A DNA stretch of 64,000 nt, from positions 317,458-381,457 of the forward strand of contig NZ_QNRK01000001.1 in the NCBI RefSeq assembly GCF_003315135.1. Direction: 5' to 3'. Every line of letters begins with the position of its first letter. The stretch's first letter is position 1. Below the pieces are notes generated by a model. The model did not search any database, was not told where the DNA came from, and worked only from the letters and a program-made list of their open reading frames with translations. Position numbers and translations under genes: made by a program. Source of the DNA: Roseiarcus fermentans (GTDB lineage Bacteria; Pseudomonadota; Alphaproteobacteria; Rhizobiales; Beijerinckiaceae). Below are positions 5,380-62,201 of the stretch, piece by piece.

Positions 5380-8300
5380 TTGTCAACACGCGTGTTCGCT
5401 CTTGCCGGTCCGTCGCGACGCAGTCTACGCCGATGGCTCGCGGTTACCGCGAGCGCCGGGTTCGGGTTCGGCCCCATTGCGTCATCGATGGCCGGAGGTC
5501 TCGGCGTTCTGCCGCAGGGCGGCTCGGTCGCCGCCGGCCAGGCGACGATCGGCGCTCCCGCGAACAACAGCCTCACGGTCAATCAGGGCTCCCAGAATGC
5601 TGTCATCAACTGGAACTCGTTTTCGATAGGCCAGTCCAACATTGTCACCTACCACCAGCCGAACGCGGGTTCGGCCGCGCTCAACCGGGTGACTGGCGGG
5701 ACGCCCTCGACCCTTGCCGGGCGGCTGAACGCCAACGGCCAACTCTATCTCGTCAATCCGAACGGCGTCGCGATCACCAAGACCGGAATCGTTCAGGTCG
5801 GCGGCGGCTTCGTCGGCTCGACGCTCGGCATCAGCGACGACGACTTCATGAGCGGCAAGCGGACGTTCAAGGGCAATGGCCATTCGGCCACCGTCAGCAA
5901 CGCCGGCCGGATTTCCGCCGGCAAGGGCGGCTTCGTCGGGCTGATCGGCGGCACAGCGTCGAATTCGGGGACCGTCCGGGTCCAGCTCGGAAAGGTCGGG
6001 CTGGGGTCAGGCGAATCGGTCACGCTCGACGTCAATGGCGACGGCTTCATGCAAGTCGCGGTCCCGACCGCCTCCAAGGCTGCCGCCGGCGGGGGGTTGG
6101 TCGACGTTTCGGGCCGCATCAACGCGCCAGGCGGATCGATTGAGCTCGAGGCGGCTACGGTCAAGCAGGCGATCCGCAATGCCGTGAACGTTTCCGGCGC
6201 GCTCTCCGCCCGCTCACTCTCCGGCCATTCCGGTTCGATCGTCCTCGGCGGCGGCGCCGGCGGAAAGGTCAATGTCTCCGGCAGCCTCGATGTCTCGGCC
6301 GGACGAAGCGCGGCCCGCGCGGCTTCCGTCAGATCGGCCTCGGCGATCCGCAACGCGAGGGCCGCGGCCGCGGCCAGATCCGCATTGGCGCCGGCCGATG
6401 GCGGGAGCATCGCCATAACCGGCGCCGATGTCGCCATCGGTGACAAGGCGAGTCTCAAGGCGCTGAGCTGGGGCGCCAGGGGCGGCGCCATCAGCGTCAC
6501 TGGCGACACGCTCTCCATCGGCTCCGCGACCCTCGACGTTTCCGGCGCGACGGGCGGCGGTCGTCTTCTGATCGGCGGCGGCCCGCAAGGCGCAGGGCCG
6601 CTCGCCGACGCCGGAACCGTCCGCATCGCGTCGGGGGCGACGCTGACAGCCAATGCGACTCGAGACGGCGACGGCGGCCAGATCGTGGTCTGGTCGGACA
6701 ATTCCACCACAATCCATGGCGCGCTCGCCGCGCAAGGCGCGGGCTCCGGCGGCGGCGGCAAGATCGAAACGTCGGGCCACATCCTGGATGTCGCGGGCGC
6801 CGCGGTGACTGCGTCGGCGCCGCACGGCGCGGCCGGCGTGTGGCTGCTCGATCCGTACGACTTGAATGTCAGCGGGGCCGCCACCACCGCAAATCAGAAT
6901 CCCGCCGGGACCTGGACCTCCACCGGCGCGGGCGGCGCCGTCCTGAACACCGACATCGACGCGGCGTTGAACGGCGGGACCAACGTCGTGCTTCAGACCA
7001 GCGCCACGCCAGGTGCCGGTTTGGGGAACCTGAACGTCTATTCCCCGATCGCGTGGACCACGAACACCACGCTCACGCTGACCGCCTCCAATGACGTCAA
7101 CGTCTATGCCAATATCACGGCGACAGGAGACACCGCCGGGATCGTTATCAATCCAAACACAGCCGTTGGAAGCGCGCCTGCGAGTGGAAGCGGGACGTTC
7201 AATGTGCAGCTTGCGTCGATCACCTTGTCCGGGGCGACCCCGAGTCTGTCGATCGGCGGCTTTGCCTATACAATTATCAACAGCCTCGGGATCGCTCAGG
7301 ACGCGGTCGTCCCGCCGGCGCAGCCAAGTCTTCAGGGGGTGGCGTCCTCGGATCTGACCGCTCATTACGCGCTCGGCAGTGATATCGCGGCGGGGGCGAC
7401 CGCCGGCTGGAACGCCGGCGCAGGCTTTACTCCGATTGGAACAGTGGGCTTGCCGTTTAACGGAACTTTTGACGGTCTTGGACATACGATCACGGGTTTG
7501 ACGATCAATCGTCCGGCTACTGCCGATGTCGGTCTCTTCGGATCCACCGGCACGGGTTCGGTGATTCGAAATGTCGGCCTGGTCGGCGGAAGTGTCTTAG
7601 CGACAAGCAGCACCGGCGGACTGGTGGGAAGCAATACCGGCGGGGCCATCGTGAATAGCTACAACACCGGCTCTGTCACCGGGACCTCGAGTCTGGGCGG
7701 CCTGGCGGGGAGCAATACGGGTTCGATCCGCGACAGCTACACGACTGGAAACGTCAGCGGCACGAGCAGTGTCGGCGGGTTGGTCGGCGGCAGCACCGGC
7801 CCGGTCACCGATAGTTACGCCGCTGGAAACGTAACCGGAACGAGCAGTGTCGGCGGCTTGATCGGAGGCAGCACCGGGGCGGTCACGGATAGTTATGCGA
7901 CCGGGAACGTGAGCGGCAGCAGTAGCGTGGGCGGGTTAATCGGAGGCAGCACAGGTACAATAACCCACGTTTACTCCACCGGCGCCGTGACCGGCTCGTC
8001 GAGTGTTGGGGGGTTGTTGGGATCTAGCACCGGCGATGTATACAGCAGCTACTGGAATACCGAGACATCAGGGCAAGCGACATCTGCGGGAGCACCGGAG
8101 GCAATCGGACTCACCAGCGCTCAAATGATGCAGCAATCGAATTTCGTCGAATGGGACTTCGTCAACACCTGGATTATTTACAACGGACTGACGGACCCAC
8201 TGCTGCGGCATTTCATGGCGCCGCTGACGGTGACAGCCAACAATGCCAACAAGACCTACAATGGGCAGGCCTTTTCGGGCGGTAACGGCGTCACGTACTC

Positions 8301-53975: not shown

Positions 53976-54473
53976 GCGGACGGCGCCGTTCGCCATCGAA
54001 TCCGGCAAGCGGATCGGCCGCGCCCGAGCACAGCGGACAGTGTCCACCAAAGGAAAAGTGGAGGGCGCAAGTTTCTGACGACGGCGGTGGCAAAGTCGTA
54101 AGACCAAAATCCCGCACGCCACGAGTATGTGCGGTCTCGGCGATAAACAATAAGTTTGTTATTGAACACCGTAAACAGAACGGATTTTAAAACACATTAT
54201 AATTATAGAGTCGTGATCAATCCAGACGAAGCAAACGCCAGACCGAAGGCATACCTCTTTTGGTTACGGCGCAAGAATTCTCTTAACAACTTGGCGGATA
54301 TTTCACTACAATGCGGCGACAACGGGAGCGCGGGTCACGGGTCGACGCCTCGGAGCGAGGCCCGAGGGAGAACATGGGGAGGTCATGCAGGCGTAACCGA
54401 GCGTCGGGCCATCGGTGGGTGGCGGGCAGTCATTTCCTTTTCCATTTTCAGTGTCTTGAAGGGGCTAAAGGCT
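53976..54473. other. Intergenic region with AT-rich segment upstream of the regulator
   Basis: No gene is visible. From about 54135 to 54310 the DNA is much more AT-rich than the surroundings, with a small inverted repeat AACAA-TAAGT-TTGTT near 54148-54163. An open frame from 54156 runs into the regulator gene, but its first part has no family similarity. I read this as the promoter and leader of the regulator. Confidence 0.4.
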
Positions 54474-55310
54474 ATGTCGACCGTTTATACTTCAAAGTCT
54501 TGTAGTAATTCTTGCGAGTCGGGGCTGACGATGGAGGGGGCGAGCGATCGGCCCGCCTCGTTTTATGGTCGGTCTCCCTTTTACGAGCGGATGTCGGGAG
54601 CGAACCCCGTGTTTCGCGATCTCGACGGGCCCGATGCGCCCGGAATCATTCGCGCCTGGCCCAGCGACAGGATTCTCGTCGTCTACGACAAGCTGTTCCT
54701 GGCGGAATGCCTGAAGAGCGTCTTGCAGACCTCGCTGAACGCACCGGTGCAGATCTGTTCGTCGCTCGACGAGATCTGCGACGAGGGACGGGAGGGCGAC
54801 GCGCGTCTGATCCTGTTCCTGATCGACACGGTGAAGACTCCGGACACCTACGACCTCCTGCGCCAGGCGACGGCCGTGGCGAAGGCGCCGGTCGTCGTGC
54901 TGTCGCACTCGCGCGAGCAGCGCGTGGTGCGCGAGGTCATGCAGTGCGGGGCGAAGGCTTACATCCCGATGATGACGGGCATTTCCGTCGCCATCGAGGC
55001 GGTGCGGTTCGTCCTGGCCGGCGGGACCTACGTCCCTCCGGAAAGCCTGATGGAGACGGGGCGTGAACCGGTCGCCGGCCTGGCGCTGGAGACGGTCAAC
55101 CCCGTCACCCTGCGGGAATTGTCGATCATCCAGGCGATTCAGCAGGGCAAATCGAACAAGATCATCGCGTATGAACTGAAGCTGTGCGAGAGCACGGTCA
55201 AGGTCCACATCCGCAACATCATGCGCAAGCTCAACGCGAAGAACCGCACGGCGGTGGCCGTGCGGTCGGCGGAACTCCTCGTCGCGCCGGAACTGGGCAA
55301 GATCGCATAG
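54474..55310 (+). CDS. NarL/LuxR-type response regulator with atypical receiver
   Basis: This 278-residue regulator has a receiver-like domain at about residues 65-185 and a C-terminal LuxR helix-turn-helix at 211-268 (VTLRELSIIQAIQQGKSNKIIAYEL, KLCESTVKVHIRNIMRKL). In the receiver the usual acidic pair is Y71-D72, the likely phospho-acceptor is D118, and the conserved Lys after GAKAYI is replaced (PMMTG), so phosphorylation may be weak or absent. I start at ATG 54474; the first 60 residues look unstructured. It is the nearest regulator to the Gly-Asn protein cluster, but the 392-bp gap means separate transcription. Confidence 0.82.
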   Translation: MSTVYTSKSCSNSCESGLTMEGASDRPASFYGRSPFYERMSGANPVFRDLDGPDAPGIIRAWPSDRILVVYDKLFLAECLKSVLQTSLNAPVQICSSLDEICDEGREGDARLILFLIDTVKTPDTYDLLRQATAVAKAPVVVLSHSREQRVVREVMQCGAKAYIPMMTGISVAIEAVRFVLAGGTYVPPESLMETGREPVAGLALETVNPVTLRELSIIQAIQQGKSNKIIAYELKLCESTVKVHIRNIMRKLNAKNRTAVAVRSAELLVAPELGKIA

Positions 55311-55702
55311 CCGCGGCAACCCGGCAACGCGCTCCGGCGGTCTCCAGCCGGGGCGCGTGGAGATCGCCTGCGCCGAATACCGGCCGAGGCCGGCCGGCGT
55401 CATGTCAAGTCAAGGCGCGGACATATATCCCGCCCTACACCTTTGCGCATCGCTCTATTTGCGCCGTTCTGCCTTCAATTAGCGATATAGAGGGCTATAT
55501 GACCAATAGTATTATTGGCGTAACTGAAACGACCGAATGCGGTAAACAGTTGCCGGTCTTATCGACCCAATTGGATTGCCGCATCGCCTCATTAGACATC
55601 TATTCTGCAATGAGAACATAGTCTTAAGTGCTGGTCGCGCCGAACGTGCGCGCTTTCGAACCCAACAGTCAGCAATTTCCTTTTTCAATTCAGGAGGACA
55701 CC
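55311..55702. promoter_or_regulatory. AT-rich leader of the Gly-Asn gene cluster with a CCAATA palindrome
   Basis: The region from about 55425 to 55700 is AT-rich and has no recognisable gene. CCAATA-GTAT-TATTGG at 55503-55518 is a perfect 6-bp inverted repeat, the kind of site bound by LuxR/NarL or MarR-like dimers. It ends with AGGAGG at 55692-55697 before the first Gly-Asn gene. Confidence 0.45.
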
Positions 55703-56122
55703 ATGAAGACGCTTCTCGCCGCGACCGCCGCCCTCGCTCTCCTCGCCGCTTCGCCCGCGTTCGCCGTCTCGGTCGGCAGCGGCAACGGCAACGGCAATGG
55801 CAACGTCGGCGCCCTCAACGGCAACGGCAACGGCAACGGCAACGTCGGCGCCGACAACGGCAACGGCAACGGCAATCTCAACAAGGGCATCGGCAACGGC
55901 AACCTGAACGGCAACCTGAACTTCGGCATCGGCAACGGCAATCTCAACGGCAACGCCAACAAGGGCATCCTCAACGGCAACCTCAACGGCAATCTGAACT
56001 TCGGCATCGGCAACGGCGTGGGCAACGGCAACGGCAACCACGGCATCCTCAACGGCAATGTCAACGGCAATCTCAACGCCGGCGTCGGCAACGGCAACGG
56101 CAACGGCAACGCCAACCACTAG
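55703..56122 (+). CDS. Exported Gly-Asn repeat protein 1
   Basis: This 139-residue protein has a Sec signal peptide cleaved near residue 21 (LLAATAALALLAASPAFA). The whole mature part is made of Gly-Asn dipeptides in units such as GNGNGNVGALN, GNLNGNLNFGIGN and GNANKGILN, with no Cys and hardly any charge. The units are irregular multiples of a short N-x-G step, which could build a beta-solenoid or an extended fibre. I know of no named family; the pattern recalls Asn-Gly-rich PPE-MPTR and curlin-like repeats only loosely. AGGAGG precedes the ATG. It is first of four such genes. Confidence 0.8.
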   Translation: MKTLLAATAALALLAASPAFAVSVGSGNGNGNGNVGALNGNGNGNGNVGADNGNGNGNLNKGIGNGNLNGNLNFGIGNGNLNGNANKGILNGNLNGNLNFGIGNGVGNGNGNHGILNGNVNGNLNAGVGNGNGNGNANH

Positions 56123-56165
56123 CCCGCTTTTCGGGCCGTCCCGCGCCGCTCGCGGCGCGGGACGG
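56122..56165 (+). terminator. Hairpins between Gly-Asn genes 1 and 2
   Basis: A small GCCCG/CGGGC hairpin is followed by a perfect 14-bp stem at 56136-56165 (CCGTCCCGCGCCGC with its complement around TC). There is no long T-run, so it may be an mRNA-stabilising or attenuating element rather than a full terminator. Confidence 0.6.
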
Positions 56166-56302
56166 GGAATGACGATTTTCCTCGCGAAGGCGGCGTCTGC
56201 CCCGGCCGCGGCTCGACGCCGACGGCGAGGCTGGCGGAACGAAGGCGTGGCCTCGGAGGCAGACTCGGACTTCTCGCCTTCCTCGAACAAAAGGAAACGA
56301 CG

Positions 56303-56875
56303 ATGTCTTCGACTTCGACCCTGGCGAACGCCATCGTGACGACATCCGTCTGGCTGTCGATGACCGCCGTTGCGCTCGCCGCCGTCCCGCCGTCTTCGTC
56401 GCCGGCCGTTCACAAGGCCGGTCCCGGCATACAGGTCGCCACCAGCGTTGCGAGCGGCAACGGCAACGGCAACGGCAACATCGGAACCGCCAACGGCAAC
56501 GGCAACGGCAACGGCAACGTCGGCCTCACCAACGGCAACGGCAACGGCAACGGCAACGTCGGCACGAGCAACGGCAACGCCAACGGCAATGGCAACGCCG
56601 ACGCCAACGGCAACATCGGCTACGACAACGGCGGCACCGGCAATATCGGCGCCTTCAATGGCCTCAACAATACGAGTGTGACCAGCGGCAACAACAACAT
56701 CGGCGCTGGCAACGGCAACAACAACGGTGGGACTAACAACGGCAACAGCAATATCGGTTCGTACAACGGCAACAACAACGGCAACGGCAACTCGAGTCCG
56801 ACGAGCGGCAACAACAACGGAAATCACAACAAAGGCTCGCTCAACGGCAACGGCAACGGCAACAACAACAAATAA
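56303..56875 (+). CDS. Exported Gly-Asn repeat protein 2
   Basis: This 190-residue protein has a signal-like hydrophobic N-terminus (IVTTSVWLSMTAVALAA), a short Pro/Ser linker with PPSSSPAVHKAGPG, then GNGNGNIGTAN, GNGNGNVGLTN and GNGNGNVGTSN units. The second half is richer in Asn (SGNNNIGAGNGNNNGG, GNNNGNGNSS) and ends GNGNNNK. It is the longest of the four. The ATG at 56303 follows AAAGGAAA. Same strand as and 180 bp downstream of gene 1. Confidence 0.78.
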   Translation: MSSTSTLANAIVTTSVWLSMTAVALAAVPPSSSPAVHKAGPGIQVATSVASGNGNGNGNIGTANGNGNGNGNVGLTNGNGNGNGNVGTSNGNANGNGNADANGNIGYDNGGTGNIGAFNGLNNTSVTSGNNNIGAGNGNNNGGTNNGNSNIGSYNGNNNGNGNSSPTSGNNNGNHNKGSLNGNGNGNNNK

Positions 56876-56937
56876 AGTGGGAAATTCGACGTTTCGCCGA
56901 AGCCGTTCACGACCGAGGCGAGCGCAGACTTCATTCC

Positions 56938-56963
56938 CCCGCCGGCGGGCCTCCGCCGGCGGG
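56938..56963 (+). terminator. Hairpin between Gly-Asn genes 2 and 3
   Basis: CCCGCCGGCGG-GCCT-CCGCCGGCGGG is a perfect 11-bp stem ending 45 bases before gene 3. Without a T-run it looks like a processing or stability element. Confidence 0.6.
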
Positions 56964-57007
56964 TCGAAATGTGGACGGGAGAGAAGAAAGGCAATCAGGA
57001 GTTGGCT

Positions 57008-57385
57008 ATGAATCGCAAGCACATTCTGTTTGGCGCGCTCCTCGCGCTCCTCGTTCCGCTCGCCGCCTACGCAGACGACGGCGCCGGCAACTTCAATGGC
57101 AACTTCAACGTCGGCAACGGCAACGGCAACGGCAACAGCGGAAACAACAACGGCAACTTCAACGTCGGAAACAACAACGGCAACCTGAACGTCGACAGCA
57201 GCAACGGCAACGGGGTGATCGGCAGCAACGTCGGCAACGGCGTCGGCGGCGCGATCGACACGACGACGCCGACGGCGACGCCGCTGTCGACGCCGGTCAC
57301 GCCGCCGCTGTCGACGCCGCTCGCGACGCCCGTCGCGACGCCGCTCGCGGCGCCGTTGTCGCTGCCGAACCTGAACCTGTTCTGA
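57008..57385 (+). CDS. Exported Gly-Asn repeat protein 3 with Thr/Pro tail
   Basis: This 125-residue protein has a clean signal peptide (HILFGALLALLVPLAAYA), then GNFNGNFNVGN, GNGNGNSGNNN and GNLNVDSSN repeats, then a different C-terminus of TPTATPLSTPV-type Thr/Pro/Ala repeats ending LSLPNLNLF. The tail could span the cell wall or be glycosylated. AGGAG six bases before ATG 57008 sets the start. It is 132 bp after gene 2. Confidence 0.78.
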   Translation: MNRKHILFGALLALLVPLAAYADDGAGNFNGNFNVGNGNGNGNSGNNNGNFNVGNNNGNLNVDSSNGNGVIGSNVGNGVGGAIDTTTPTATPLSTPVTPPLSTPLATPVATPLAAPLSLPNLNLF

Positions 57386-57480
57386 GGGGTTTGATCGGGC
57401 GCGGGAGGCGAACCATGACCTTCGATCGCGGCGCCGCGGCGCGTGCACGGCGCGGGCGGGAAGGCTTACGGGAGTTGACC

Positions 57481-57837
57481 ATGAATCGCGTCTATCTTCT
57501 GTTGGTCGCCGGCCTGGCGATCCTCGTCCCCGTCGTTGCGCCGGCGGCGACCGGGACCGGCAACGGCAATGGCAACGGCAACGTCGGCGACAACAACGGC
57601 AACGGAAACAGCGGCAACTTCAACGGCAACGGCAATATCGGAGACAACAACGGCAATCGAAACAGCGGCGACTTCAACGGCAACGGCAACATCGGCAGCA
57701 ATCTGGGCAATGGGTACGGCAGCAACGGCAACGACAATCACGTCGGCCGCTGGCGCTCCGGTCCCGGCCGCGCCTGGACGGCGCCGAGCTGGACGTCTCC
57801 GGGGCCGCACCACACCGGGTGGCGCTGGCGGCGCTGA
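57481..57837 (+). CDS. Exported Gly-Asn repeat protein 4 with basic aromatic tail
   Basis: This 118-residue protein has a signal peptide (YLLLVAGLAILVPVVAPAA), the most regular repeats of the set (GNGNGNVGDNNG, GNGNSGNFNG, GNGNIGDNNG) and a Trp/Arg/His/Pro-rich C-terminus (WRSGPGRAW, HTGWRWRR). Two starts are possible: 57416 (behind GGGAGG) and 57481 (behind GGGAG); the second gives a normal signal peptide. It ends 36 bp before the exporter adaptor gene, so it is very probably co-transcribed with it. Confidence 0.77.
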   Translation: MNRVYLLLVAGLAILVPVVAPAATGTGNGNGNGNVGDNNGNGNSGNFNGNGNIGDNNGNRNSGDFNGNGNIGSNLGNGYGSNGNDNHVGRWRSGPGRAWTAPSWTSPGPHHTGWRWRR

Positions 57838-57873
57838 CGTCGCGAGCCAGTCTTTCGAGGCGGGAGGCGAGAC

Positions 57874-59226
57874 ATGACCATCGGCCGAGCGATCCTGGTG
57901 GCGGCGGCGGGCGGCCTCGCGTGGTCGGGCGGCGCCGACCTTCACTTTCCCAGCATGGGCGGGCTCATGGCGCCGGGCGCCGCCACGCTTGCCTCGCGTT
58001 ACGATCTCGGCGCCGTCGAAGGCGCCGAAATCGTGCGGACTGTCACGGCGACGGGTTCGGTCGCCTCCACGATCAACGTCGAGGTCGGGGCGCAGCTCTC
58101 CGGGCAGATCGTCAAGCTTGCCGCCGACTTCAACGATCCCGTGCGCAAGGGCCAGGTTCTCGCGGAGATCGAGGACAGCTCCTTCCGAGCGCAGGTCGAG
58201 CAGGCCCGCGCCGCGTTCGAGGGCGCCGGGGCCGACGTTCGCGTCGCCGAAGCCAAGCTCGCGCGCGCGATGGCCGACGAAGCCCAGATCGTCACGCAGC
58301 GCAGCGTCCTCTCCGCCCGTCTCGACGCGGCGCGCGGCGCCGCGACGATCGCGCGGCGGGAGGCCGAGCGGAAGTCCGCCCTCCTCGCCAAGAGCGTGAT
58401 CGCCGCCTCCGACGCCGACGACGCGGCTTCGCGCGCCGGCATGGCGGCGGCGAACGAGCGCGAGGCCGAAGCCAATCTCGCCGCGCTCGCCGCGCAGAGC
58501 CAGGGCGCAAAGGCCGACATCGCGCGTGCGAGCGCCGAAGCCGACAGCGCGCGCGCCGCGGTCCGCCGCGCCGCCGCGCAGCTCGAAAACGCCTCCATCG
58601 ACCTCCAGCACACGCGCATCCGCTCGCCGATCGACGGCGTCGTCATCGGGCGGGGAGTCGAGGAAGGGCAGACGCTGGCGTCGACCCTCGAGACGCGCAC
58701 GCTGTTCGTGATCGCCGGAGACTTGCGCCGGATGGAGATCCGCGCCCGGGTCGACGAAAGCGACATCGCGCAGGTCCGGATCGGCGAGCCCGTCACGTTC
58801 ACCGTGGACGCCTATCCGGAGCGGCGTTTCGCGGCGACGGTGAGCCAGATCCGCAAGGACCCGATGGTGATCCAGAACGTGGTCACCTACATCGTCGTGC
58901 TCGCGGCGGCCAACGACGACTACGCCCTTCTGCCCGGGATGACGGTGGTGGCGAAGATCGAGACGGAACGCGCCGTCGCCTCGCGCACGGTTCCGCTCGC
59001 CGCGCTGCGGTTCCATCCGCGCGGCCCGACGTCGGCGGCGGAGCCGAAGGGTTCGGTGGTCTGGACGCTGAAGGACGGCGCGCCGACCCCGGTTGCGGTG
59101 ACGATCGGAAACGACGACGGCGAGCGCGCCGCCGTCACCTCCGGCGATCTCGCCCCGGGCGAGCAGGTCTTGACCGGCGAAGCGCCGCCGGGCCCCGCGC
59201 CAGTCCGGCCGCGGGGCGACGGCTGA
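57874..59226 (+). CDS. MacA/HlyD-type periplasmic adaptor of a tripartite exporter
   Basis: This 450-residue protein has an N-terminal hydrophobic segment, a biotinyl-lipoyl-like half motif (VEVGAQLSGQIVKLAADFNDPVRKGQVLAEI), a long Ala-rich coiled-coil hairpin (about residues 105-240), the second lipoyl half (TRIRSPIDGVVIGRGVEEGQTL) and barrel domains. This is the architecture of MacA and related membrane-fusion proteins that link an inner-membrane ABC pump to TolC. The stop and the ATPase start overlap (59226). No tolC is in the window. Confidence 0.9.
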   Translation: MTIGRAILVAAAGGLAWSGGADLHFPSMGGLMAPGAATLASRYDLGAVEGAEIVRTVTATGSVASTINVEVGAQLSGQIVKLAADFNDPVRKGQVLAEIEDSSFRAQVEQARAAFEGAGADVRVAEAKLARAMADEAQIVTQRSVLSARLDAARGAATIARREAERKSALLAKSVIAASDADDAASRAGMAAANEREAEANLAALAAQSQGAKADIARASAEADSARAAVRRAAAQLENASIDLQHTRIRSPIDGVVIGRGVEEGQTLASTLETRTLFVIAGDLRRMEIRARVDESDIAQVRIGEPVTFTVDAYPERRFAATVSQIRKDPMVIQNVVTYIVVLAAANDDYALLPGMTVVAKIETERAVASRTVPLAALRFHPRGPTSAAEPKGSVVWTLKDGAPTPVAVTIGNDDGERAAVTSGDLAPGEQVLTGEAPPGPAPVRPRGDG

Positions 59227-59939
59227 TGCTGATCTCGGCCCAGGACATCAGCCGCCGCTACGGCGCCGCCGACCTGCCGTTCTTCGCCCTCAGGCCGACG
59301 TCGCTCGAGATCGAGGCCGGCGCCTTCGTGGCCGTGGTCGGCGCGTCCGGATCCGGAAAGTCGACGCTGATGGCGCTGCTCGGGCTGCTCGACCGCCCCT
59401 CGTCCGGCCGCCTCCTGTTCGAGGGCCGGGAGACGACCGCGCTTCGGCCCGATGCGACCGCGCGGATCCGCAATCGCCGGATCGGTTTCATTTTCCAGCA
59501 ATACCACCTCCTCGCCCGCATGACGGTGCTGCGCAACGTCGAGCTGCCGCTCGTCTACGCGGGGGAATCGCCCCGCAACCGGCGCCGGCGCGCCGAGGCG
59601 GCGCTCGAGTCGGTGGGCCTGACGGCCAAATTCCACGCCATGCCGGCGAACCTCAGCGGCGGCGAGCAGCAGCGGGTGGCGATCGCGCGCGCGATCGCCG
59701 CCGACCCGGTCCTGCTGCTCGCCGACGAGCCGACCGGGGCGCTCGACTCGACGTCGGGCGAGGGCGTCCTGGGGCTGATCGAGGCGCTGAACGCGCAAGG
59801 GCGCACGGTGGTCATGGTGACCCACGATTCCGGCGTCGCCGCGCGCGCGCGGCGCGTCATCCGGATGCGGGACGGCGAGATCGTTTCCGACGGGCCGGCG
59901 GACCCGGAGACCCGTCACCCGGAGCGAGCCGCGTCATGA
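59226..59939 (+). CDS. MacB/LolD-type ABC transporter ATP-binding protein
   Basis: This 237-residue ATPase has Walker A GASGSGKST, FIFQQYHLLARMTVLRNVELP, signature LSGGEQQRVAIARAIA, Walker B VLLLADEPTGALDS and VTHDSGVA, all diagnostic of the MacB/LolD/FtsE clade. In MacB proper, ATPase and permease are fused; here they are two genes joined by an ATGA overlap. It powers the permease encoded next. Confidence 0.93.
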   Translation: MLISAQDISRRYGAADLPFFALRPTSLEIEAGAFVAVVGASGSGKSTLMALLGLLDRPSSGRLLFEGRETTALRPDATARIRNRRIGFIFQQYHLLARMTVLRNVELPLVYAGESPRNRRRRAEAALESVGLTAKFHAMPANLSGGEQQRVAIARAIAADPVLLLADEPTGALDSTSGEGVLGLIEALNAQGRTVVMVTHDSGVAARARRVIRMRDGEIVSDGPADPETRHPERAAS

Positions 59940-61165
59940 GGCCTTGGGACGCGCTGCACGCCGCCGCGCTGGCGCTGGTGGAAAACCCGGTGCGCACGCT
60001 CTTGACGCTGCTCGGCGTCATCATCGGCGTCGCCTGCGTCGTCAGCATGGCCGCGATCGGCGCCGGGGCGCAGCAACGCATCAGCGAGGAGATCGGCGCG
60101 TTCGGCGCCAATGTGCTGGTCGTCAATCCCGGGGCGACGCGCAAGGACGGCGTCAGTTCGGCGACCGGCGACCAGAAATCCCTCACCCTCGCCGACGCCG
60201 AGGCGATCGCCGGGCTTGCGACCATCGCGGCCGCCGCGGCGTCGGACTTCGGCAAGGTCCAGGTCGTGGCCAAGAATCGCAACTGGTCGACCACGGTCAA
60301 CGGCACCAACGTCCGGCACTTCGCCATCCGGCAGTGGACCATCGGCTCGGGGCGCGCGTTCTCGCCCGAGGAAGAGGTGTCCGCGGCGAAAGTCGCGGTG
60401 ATCGGCGCGACCGCCGCCGAGCATCTGTTCGGCGCGGACGATCCGATCGGTCAGGTCGTGCGCATTCTCAACACGCCCTTCACCGTGATCGGAGTGATGA
60501 AGCCCAAGGGGATGGCGTTTGGCGGACAGGATCAGGACGACGTCGTGTTCGTCCCGATCGCGGCGGCGGCGGTGCGGCTGATCGGCGGCGCCAACACCGT
60601 CAACCACGACGCCGTGGCCTATATCCTGGCGAGCGCCCGTTCGAGCGACTGGATGGGCTATGCGGTCGACGACGTCACGCGGCTCCTGCGCCAGCGCCAC
60701 GATCGCGGAACCCGCGACGACGACTTCACGGTGACGACCGCCTCCTCCGCCCTGGCGGCCCAGGAATCCTCGACCCGCACCGTCGCGCTGCTGCTCGGTT
60801 CGGTCGCGCTGTTCTCGCTCCTCGTCGGCGGCATCAGCATCATGAACATCATGCTCGTGTGCGTGACCGAGCGCACGCCCGAGATCGGGCTCAGGCTCGC
60901 CATCGGCGCCCGGCCGCGCGACGTCGCGTTTCAGTTTCTGCTCGAAGCGACGGCGCTGAGCGCGCTGGGCGGGCTCGTCGGCGTCATCCTCGGTTCCGTC
61001 GCGGCGGTGATCGTCACGCGGGTGCTCGGTTGGCCGGTCCTCGTCCGGCCCGAGATGGTCGCCGCCGCCCTCGGCCTCGCCGCCGCCTTCGGCGTCGGAT
61101 TCGGCTGGTACCCGGCGTGGCGGGCGTCGCTGCTGCAGCCGGTGGACGCCCTGCGCGCCCGGTAG
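59936..61165 (+). CDS. MacB-type ABC transporter permease
   Basis: This 409-residue protein has an N-terminal helix with LLTLLGVIIGVACVVSMAAIGAG, a large periplasmic MacB_PCD domain (about residues 40-260), and three C-terminal helices with GGISIMNIMLVCVTERTPEIGLRLAIGARPRDV (FtsX/MacB core). MacB-type pumps push periplasmic substrates to TolC by mechanotransmission rather than carrying them across the inner membrane. This suits substrates with Sec signals such as the four upstream Gly-Asn proteins; that pairing is inference. Confidence 0.92.
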   Translation: MRPWDALHAAALALVENPVRTLLTLLGVIIGVACVVSMAAIGAGAQQRISEEIGAFGANVLVVNPGATRKDGVSSATGDQKSLTLADAEAIAGLATIAAAAASDFGKVQVVAKNRNWSTTVNGTNVRHFAIRQWTIGSGRAFSPEEEVSAAKVAVIGATAAEHLFGADDPIGQVVRILNTPFTVIGVMKPKGMAFGGQDQDDVVFVPIAAAAVRLIGGANTVNHDAVAYILASARSSDWMGYAVDDVTRLLRQRHDRGTRDDDFTVTTASSALAAQESSTRTVALLLGSVALFSLLVGGISIMNIMLVCVTERTPEIGLRLAIGARPRDVAFQFLLEATALSALGGLVGVILGSVAAVIVTRVLGWPVLVRPEMVAAALGLAAAFGVGFGWYPAWRASLLQPVDALRAR

Positions 61166-61298
61166 CCGCCGCGAGGACGGCGCCGCCGACGACCGCCGCC
61201 GGCGCCGGAACCACCCTCCGCCGCATCGGCGAAACGCCCTCCGCTTGTATCGGGGCCCAGCTCATCTATCGTCGGGCGCGTCAACTTTGGGAGCCGAC

Positions 61299-62201
61299 AT
61301 GCCTCGCGTCCGCGCCAACGGGATCGACATCGCCTACGAGAGCCTCGGACGGGAGGGCGACCCCGCCATTCTGCTGATCCACGGCCTCGCCACGCCGCTC
61401 ACCGGCTGGCCCGACTCGCTCTGCGACGGCCTCGTCGGGCGCGGGTTCCGGATCGTCCGGTTCGACAACCGCGACATCGGCCGCTCGACCTTCTTTCCCG
61501 AACTCGGGGTCCCGGACATCGGCGCGCTGATGACGACCGCGCGGGCCGGCGGGCAGGCGGCTCCGCCCTATCCGCTCGACGCCATGGCGGCCGACGCCGC
61601 GGGTCTCCTCGACGCGCTCGGGATTGCGCGCGCCCACATCGCCGGCCTCTCGATGGGCGGCATGATCGCCCAGCTCGTCGCCCTGAACCACCCGGAGCGG
61701 GCCGCGAGCCTCGTCTCGATCATGTCCACCACCGGGCGGCGCGGTCTCGAGCCGGCGAAGCCGGAAGCCATGCGCGCGCTCATGGCCGTGCCCGCGAGCG
61801 CGAGTCGCGCCGACCGGCTGGCGACCGCGGTCGCGGCCGTCAGGGCGATCAGCGGCTCCGGCTTCCCGCAGACCGAGGCGGAGCTCGCCGCCTATGTCGG
61901 GCGAAGCATCGACTATACCCCGTTCGATCCGCCCGCGGCGGCGCGCCACATGGCGGCGATCGTCGCCGCGCCGCCGCGCCACGAGCGGCTGAACGGACTC
62001 CGCCTGCCGGCGCTCGTCCTGCACGGCTCGGAGGACCCGGTCATTCCGCCCGCGCACGGCGAGGACACGGCGCTGAGCATTCCCGGCGCGCGGCTCGTGA
62101 TCGTCCCCGGCATGGGCCACGACCTCAAGGAGGCGATGATGCCGACGTGGATCGACGCGATCGGCGATTTTGCGAACGAGGTCGAGGCGACCCGGGCGTG
62201 A
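61299..62201 (+). CDS. Alpha/beta hydrolase
   Basis: This 300-residue protein shows LLIHGLATPLTGW (oxyanion region), the nucleophile elbow GLSMGG, LVLHGSEDPVIPPAHG with the acid, and GMGHD with the catalytic His, so the Ser-Asp-His triad is complete. It belongs to the large esterase/epoxide-hydrolase-like group and the substrate is unknown. The start ATG at 61299 follows GGGAG. It is unrelated by spacing to the exporter (about 130 bp away). Confidence 0.88.
   Translation: MPRVRANGIDIAYESLGREGDPAILLIHGLATPLTGWPDSLCDGLVGRGFRIVRFDNRDIGRSTFFPELGVPDIGALMTTARAGGQAAPPYPLDAMAADAAGLLDALGIARAHIAGLSMGGMIAQLVALNHPERAASLVSIMSTTGRRGLEPAKPEAMRALMAVPASASRADRLATAVAAVRAISGSGFPQTEAELAAYVGRSIDYTPFDPPAAARHMAAIVAAPPRHERLNGLRLPALVLHGSEDPVIPPAHGEDTALSIPGARLVIVPGMGHDLKEAMMPTWIDAIGDFANEVEATRA

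Follow-up and report, generated by a model that had tools for sequence, protein, structure and literature searches.

A MacAB-type transporter triad beside Gly-Asn repeat protein genes in Roseiarcus fermentans, a candidate CsgG-independent exporter of curlin-like surface subunits

Curlins, the subunits of the curli (Csg) system, are small Sec-exported proteins built of short beta-type repeats and encoded in small gene clusters, with a LuxR-family regulator gene adjoining the subunit genes. According to a 2012 survey, many Alphaproteobacteria carry curlin subunits and none of the other known Csg proteins, and its conclusion was that alternative proteins must do the Csg secretion work (Dueholm 2012, PMC3521004). 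The MacAB–TolC pump, a second point of comparison, combines a HlyD-family adaptor, an ATPase and a MacB_PCD/FtsX permease; its substrates are postulated to be taken from the periplasm, and it is reported to export the Sec-delivered enterotoxin II peptide from there (PMC8277102). Here we analyzed the window, a 64,000-nucleotide stretch of the 6.79 Mb genome of Roseiarcus fermentans (contig NZ_QNRK01000001.1, positions 317,458 to 381,457), in which a LuxR/NarL-type regulator gene, four genes for Gly-Asn repeat proteins (GN1–GN4) and a MacAB-type adaptor–ATPase–permease triad follow one another (Table 1). The explanation we favor, at somewhat better than even odds, is that the GN proteins are curlin-like matrix or fiber subunits delivered by Sec and that the triad serves, in this lineage, as an exporter dedicated to them and independent of CsgG.

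The GN locus shares with curli its small clustered genes for predicted Sec-exported repeat proteins, the adjoining regulator gene and an alternating repeat closed by X-G-X-X, but differs in lacking both the curlin repeat and CsgG, in carrying an ABC triad instead and in placing Asn at alternating positions. No CsgG match (PF03783) was found in the window genome (G000) or in its two block-bearing genus-mates (G138 and G167), and no curlin match in G000. The NCBIfam model of CsgD, a LuxR-type regulator class, matched the window regulator at 1.2e-11. The CsgG-less alphaproteobacterial curlin clusters likewise hold repeat subunits without Csg secretion genes; their exporter is unnamed, whereas here the MacAB-like triad is a candidate. 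Compared to MacAB–TolC, the triad has the same three components and the same expected periplasmic source of substrate, but its ATPase and permease are separate genes scoring 253.7 and 232.8 bits against the 966 of the fused MacB equivalog, it forms a clade of its own and small repeat-protein genes adjoin it. We therefore file the block, which fails curli membership and holds a divergent MacAB-type exporter, as curli-like cargo with a MacAB-type pump. Mycobacterial PE/PPE proteins with MPTR repeats, to which the Pentapeptide_2 family (PF01469) is tied, also carry short Gly- and Asn-rich repeats; this identity was rejected, as a single GN2 relative (L147, one of 11) matched below the cut-off (20.7 versus 26.4 bits) and none of the window proteins matched in the Pfam scan. 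Among the best-ranked hits of searches of open-licence papers, no title or abstract described GN repeats, nor curlins or curli paired with an ABC transporter or MacB; the first-pass annotation was aware of no described system of this kind.

The resemblance to curlins is clearest in the repeat units. The curlin motif has been given as N-$-Psi-$-Psi-$-Q-X-G-X-X, 11 residues long (PMC10192328). In the same notation, GN1 reads N-$-N-$-N-$-N-$-N-X-G-X-X (13 residues) and GN3 reads N-$-N-$-N-X-G-X-X (9 residues), so that GN3, curlin and GN1 appear to be variants of a single plan, in which X-G-X-X closes an alternating strand of 5, 7 and 9 residues, respectively, and a GN repeat may be viewed as a curlin motif whose core positions are all taken by Asn. 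A curlin-like protein of Sinorhizobium fredii, with a Ser/Thr core and encoded outside any csg operon (PMC10192328), offers a precedent for a polar core. The 13-residue period was evident across ten GN1 proteins (identity 0.66 at 13 versus 0.49 at 11), in whose units positions 4, 8, 10, 12 and 13 vary and are often hydrophobic; the invariance of N1, N9 and G11 is by construction, since the units were picked by these residues. GN3 and GN4 have a 9-residue period, with 18 higher still in all seven proteins compared. Three orthologous groups span other genera and families, namely A4 (GN1, 11 sequences, aligned without the cut-off GN1 copy of L060), A5 (GN2, 11 sequences) and A6 (GN3/GN4, ten sequences). 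A plain GGCAAC microsatellite is ruled out by these groups together with the 13- and 9-residue periods.

Because a GGC-AAC repeat is open in its two other frames as well, an open frame alone is no proof of a GN gene. The GN frame is nevertheless supported by a purine-rich, ribosome-site-like stretch upstream of the ATG of every GN gene, by signal-like N-termini and by the three orthologous groups across several families; a codon-position test on window GN1 gave no clear third-position excess (0.25, 0.29, 0.22). The first-pass annotation had described all four as Sec-signal proteins. GN3 and GN4 passed a scripted signal-peptide test; GN1, which lay outside the tested range, has a clear Sec signal by eye and a passing counterpart in L058; GN2 failed the script and is less typical by eye. 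None of GN1–GN4 had a match reaching the cut-off in Pfam or NCBIfam.

The association of GN genes with the triad extends beyond the window. The order regulator–GN1–GN2–GN3–adaptor–ATPase–permease is kept in G000, in G167 and at loci L074, L243 and L244, and in G138 across two contigs; the contig of L244 ends within the permease. These six genomes represent two families, the window genome with G138 and G167 in one and the genomes of L074, L243 and L244 in the other. That GN genes and triad are chance neighbors, as might be said because GN clusters and triads are also found apart, is hardly credible given that the order persists down to ~48% adaptor identity and that the gap between the last GN gene and the adaptor is 36, 30 and 40 bp in the window and the two genus-mates. 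In a family sample of 199 genomes, the window adaptor had three matches at >=71% (itself, G138 and G167), all with GN genes, and the remaining 18 matches were at 37–40%; seven further genus-mates in the sample had neither a >=71% adaptor nor the GN pattern. In an order sample of 397 genomes, the L074 adaptor matched six genomes at E <= 1e-75, none of which has GN genes without the triad.

To place the triads relative to each other, a midpoint-rooted tree of concatenated adaptor, ATPase and permease was built from 29 of 31 loci, leaving out L078 (very distant) and L256 (permease not found); six plasmid triads were not among the 31. The six GN-linked triads form one clade (100/100), which together with four curlin-linked triads and L245 forms a larger one (95/92); L150, then L246 (long branch), join this set at 100/99. 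Ten of the 13 triads in the set are linked to GN or curlin genes, compared to none of the 18 loci outside it by a scripted search for GN or curlin open reading frames (ORFs), with a nominal p of 6e-6 that ignores kinship. These counts, and a block that holds no biosynthetic gene by Pfam scan and ORF list, speak against a reading we consider improbable, in which the triad has a different cargo (a small molecule, a lipid or some other peptide), with the GN genes as neighbors under the same regulator. That alternative draws on the many substrates reported for MacB-type pumps (PMC8277102) and on the GN clusters that exist without a triad. The three unlinked members of the set each have another small signal-like protein near the adaptor, on the same strand in L245 and divergent in L150 by the scripted test, and by eye only in L246. 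A small signal-peptide ORF before the adaptor was rejected as a marker of the set for want of specificity: L247 and L248 outside the set have one, and four further outside loci score on the test, at least three of them falsely by eye. Among 14 more distant matches in f36, the family of the L074 genome, 12 were read (the other two being G723 and G596).

The curlin-linked members come from four f36 genomes of one genus (G443, G338, G486 and G524; genus code g78, perhaps Bradyrhizobium), in which the triad adjoins a cluster of four curlin-type genes by script, with three to six curlin matches each above the Pfam cut-off at the locus, one gene being scanned singly. A FixJ-type regulator gene lies between the curlin genes and the triad in all three loci checked (L149, L151 and L160). 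CsgG was absent from all four genomes. Across f36, curlin repeats occur in 24 of 238 genomes: the four triad-linked ones lack CsgG, and 19 of the other 20 have it (nominal Fisher p 0.0005 for triad versus CsgG, the four being close relatives). G633 has curlin repeats with neither CsgG nor triad. In G680, one of the 19, CsgG accompanies the curlin genes, and the triad the GN genes. The Pfam CsgG model is reported to hit proteins other than curli pores also (PMC3521004). Because related triads adjoin curlin-repeat genes in CsgG-less genomes, the triad is likely to be an exporter of Sec-delivered surface subunits.

The regulators tie the two kinds of locus further together. FixJ-type regulators of the GN loci L074, L243 and L244 and of the curlin loci L149, L151 and L160 are 48–53% identical over ~200 residues (E 3e-56 to 7e-73; the fourth curlin locus, L161, was not part of the comparison), and the same regulators share 25–30% identity with that of L147. 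In G044 and G080, both without CsgG, the GN cluster abuts same-strand curlin-like genes by script, above the Pfam cut-off in G044 only. The genus-mate G027, which shows no GN pattern, carries CsgG together with curlin repeats on a single contig. Given the common FixJ-type regulator, the related triads, the abutment in G044 and G080 and the gene content of G027, GN and curlin genes are found in loci of the same kind.

In the favored explanation, the regulator would switch on the GN genes, and GN1–GN4 would pass unfolded through the inner membrane by way of Sec, with loss of their signal peptides, as their sequences suggest. In the periplasm they would be picked up by the triad, which together with a TolC-type outer-membrane channel encoded elsewhere would pump them out, doing for GN proteins what CsgG does for curlins; this part is drawn from genomic context. 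Outside the cell, the alternating Asn repeats may form a beta-arch solenoid by stacking, with ladders of Asn, and polymerize into a fiber or matrix, with GN1 as the putative main subunit and GN2 and the tailed GN3 and GN4 as minor, capping or anchoring subunits. GN proteins could instead stay periplasmic and modulate the triad as an envelope-stress device, as MacB/FtsX-type pumps are implicated in stress protection (partly PMC8277102, otherwise general knowledge). We regard this as very unlikely, since a protein of G138 (L060:3594-4991), encoded upstream of a GN locus, joins a GN2-like block to a PEP-CTERM motif and so points to the cell surface. A GN2-like block also occurs at a second site of the window genome (G000:C22:91029-91547), within a 468-residue ORF (L159:6523-7929, minus strand) whose start resembles that of the L060 protein.

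A wider proposal is that one clade of MacAB-type triads is a dedicated pump with interchangeable cargo, serving curlins in some CsgG-less Hyphomicrobiales and the all-Asn GN family in Roseiarcus-like and other genomes, and forms a second, CsgG-independent route to amyloid-like fibers; we judge this possible, at a little under an even chance. With this block and the related curlin-bearing loci, the missing Csg functions gain a concrete candidate that is open to knock-out. The GN family is also extreme in its Gly/Asn composition, and its repeat offers a test of what stacking requires of the curlin motif.

Several results weigh against the reading of GN proteins as cargo of a dedicated exporter. 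A GN cluster with readable flanks was present in 13 genomes, and in a further genome (G023) the GN genes are confined to short contigs (L064 and L065). The triad is joined to the GN genes in six (G000, G138, G167 and the genomes of L074, L243 and L244) and does not adjoin them in seven (G044, G080, G316, G344, G390, G480 and G301). The first-pass annotation had named GN genes commonly found without the exporter in relatives as evidence against its GN–exporter system, and this is the case for those seven clusters; what stands of the system is one block in six genomes of two families, with the GN-linked triads in a single clade. As L074, L243 and L244 were found through the adaptor, 6 of 13 overstates the triad share, and the true share is probably lower. 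No clade-level adaptor was found elsewhere in the seven genomes by BLAST of the family and order samples (the family sample only for G080), a search that scores the best few candidates per genome so that a miss is possible. In these relatives, another exporter would have to serve. BLAST placed a LuxR-type regulator gene, by contrast, close to the GN genes of all 13 (on the second contig in G138), the weakest match being that of L147 (24% over 136 residues), and the L060 regulator matched GerE at 2.1e-17. Because the regulator is present in 13 of 13 and the triad in 6 of 13, it is the regulator that accompanies the GN genes more constantly, whereas the exporter belongs to one lineage.

Further points on the same side concern the strength of the curlin link. 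Only two changes on the tree account for the GN and curlin labels, and all four curlin-linked triads come from a single genus, so that few events underlie the association. The curlin genes, moreover, are divergent from the triad and do not share an operon with it. GN or curlin ORFs are lacking at six plasmid triads of similar or lower identity, among them those of Leisingera (whose adaptor is 48% identical across two thirds of its length), Tropicibacter, Azospirillum and S. sojae. The block contains no TolC gene, and the genome was not searched for one. No Curlin_rpt (PF07012) match was obtained for window GN1–GN4 or for any of the 22 members of A4 and A5, and a 26-residue super-repeat, which would parallel the paired motifs of curlin, was not significant in GN1 (352 of 2,000 shuffles). 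The likeness between GN proteins and curlins is thus one of pattern and context and not demonstrated descent.

Structure prediction, which the first-pass annotation had proposed for the repeats, gave a fair AlphaFold model for GN1 (66.8), with a mostly strand middle in which residues 51–120 form a block at pLDDT 70–81, but a poor one for GN2 (47.5), both from 11-sequence alignments; PDB sequence and fold searches returned no convincing relative, none better than E 4.3. The low confidence of these models suits an alternative in which GN proteins are exported and tied to the triad without forming a polymer, whether as a disordered, hydrated coat, as a spacer in the cell wall or as a flat, ice- or mineral-binding Asn array. 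Regular Asn faces with variable residues at set positions would also fit a flat binding surface, and the tails of GN3 and GN4 differ. In the second family, however, related loci encode curlin and not GN repeats, and curlins polymerize; we consider the absence of a polymer unlikely, if the least so of the alternatives weighed here.

The coverage of the GN search bears on these counts. A GN-dipeptide marker was present in 17 of the 199 genomes of the family sample, all of which were read and six of which have GN clusters, and in 56 of the 397 genomes of the order sample; 55 of these were read at one or more sites, giving seven GN clusters, and many of the other hits were GN-tailed proteins that resemble FecR-domain proteins. 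G209 and a second site of G567 are unread, and the marker would miss clusters lacking four consecutive GN. A plasmid search with a GN2 relative gave no match with the BLAST low-complexity filter on.

Within the window, the regulator, the four GN genes, the overlapping triad and the 36-bp gap between GN4 and the adaptor were reproduced at the coordinates first annotated, and the Pfam matches in Table 1 bear out the earlier naming of a MacAB-type triad and a NarL-like regulator. The ATPase ATG at 59226 shares one base with the adaptor stop codon. The receiver half of the regulator scored 16.6 bits against Response_reg, under the Pfam cut-off of 30.2; its start codon is uncertain, with an in-frame TTG at 54156, and it is 58 and 53% identical to the GN-locus regulators of the two genus-mates. 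A promoter-like site lies at 55593-55622 (two sites across 54100-61400 versus 0.5 expected). The hairpin after GN1 is a probable element of 3'-end protection or partial attenuation; the region after the GN1 stop was folded in ten loci and is stable also in the nine others (-30 to -46 kcal/mol), the shuffle comparison applying to the window locus.

Table 1 Features of the GN locus in the window.
Feature	Coordinates	Strand	Description
LuxR/NarL-type regulator	54474..55310	+	GerE 5.7e-18; degenerate receiver domain
AT-richer gap ahead of GN1, likely promoter/control region	55311..55702	+	GC 0.55
GN1	55703..56122	+	Signal-like N-terminus, eight 13-residue units (N-G-N-x-N-G-N-x-N-x-G-x-x)
Hairpin just 3' of GN1 stop	56137..56164	+	12 pairs, no U-tail; z -3.3 (56115-56175)
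GN2	56303..56875	+	Block NGNxGYxNGGTGNxGAFNGLGN..TSGNNNxGA
Hairpin between GN2 and GN3	56938..56963	+	11 pairs; z -2.0 (56870-56975)
GN3	57008..57385	+	Short exported-type GN protein, 9-residue repeats, Pro/Thr/Leu tail
GN4	57481..57837	+	GN3-type paralogue, Trp/Arg/His-rich tail; period 9
MacA-like periplasmic adaptor	57874..59226	+	HlyD_D23 5.4e-18 (also HlyD_3), RND_mfp 4.6e-42
MacB/LolD-type ATPase	59226..59939	+	ABC_tran 3e-32; top NCBIfam model MacB, 253.7 bits
MacB-like permease	59936..61165	+	MacB_PCD 1.7e-45, FtsX 1e-17

Other observations were made at related loci. A Porin_2 gene adjoins the GN-cluster regulator in G080 (L061:8171-9565) and G044 (L062:11979-13352) and is possibly an outer-membrane partner. 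Each of three f50 genomes encodes an additional GN protein (L143:9632-10345, L144:8953-9654 and L145:8989-9579); the C-terminal tails of the three are similar and contain two cysteines. On plasmids of Sinorhizobium fredii NXT3 (L279, 8443-12281) and S. meliloti LMB1 (L281, 8312-11974), a small "hypothetical" protein, signal-like by eye, precedes a MacAB-like triad, and such pairs may represent a general arrangement for small-protein export. Long GN tails unrelated to the 13-residue GN family occur in many Hyphomicrobiales (L093, L098-L109 and other loci), on proteins that appear to resemble FecR-domain proteins. About 9.5 kb beyond the window end, a long repetitive open frame (L069:13004-16867, minus strand) probably encodes a surface protein. 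Elsewhere in the window, a 78-base tandem repeat of 2.7 copies lies at 7744-7952 and in one frame would presumably give a GLUG-like adhesin repeat.

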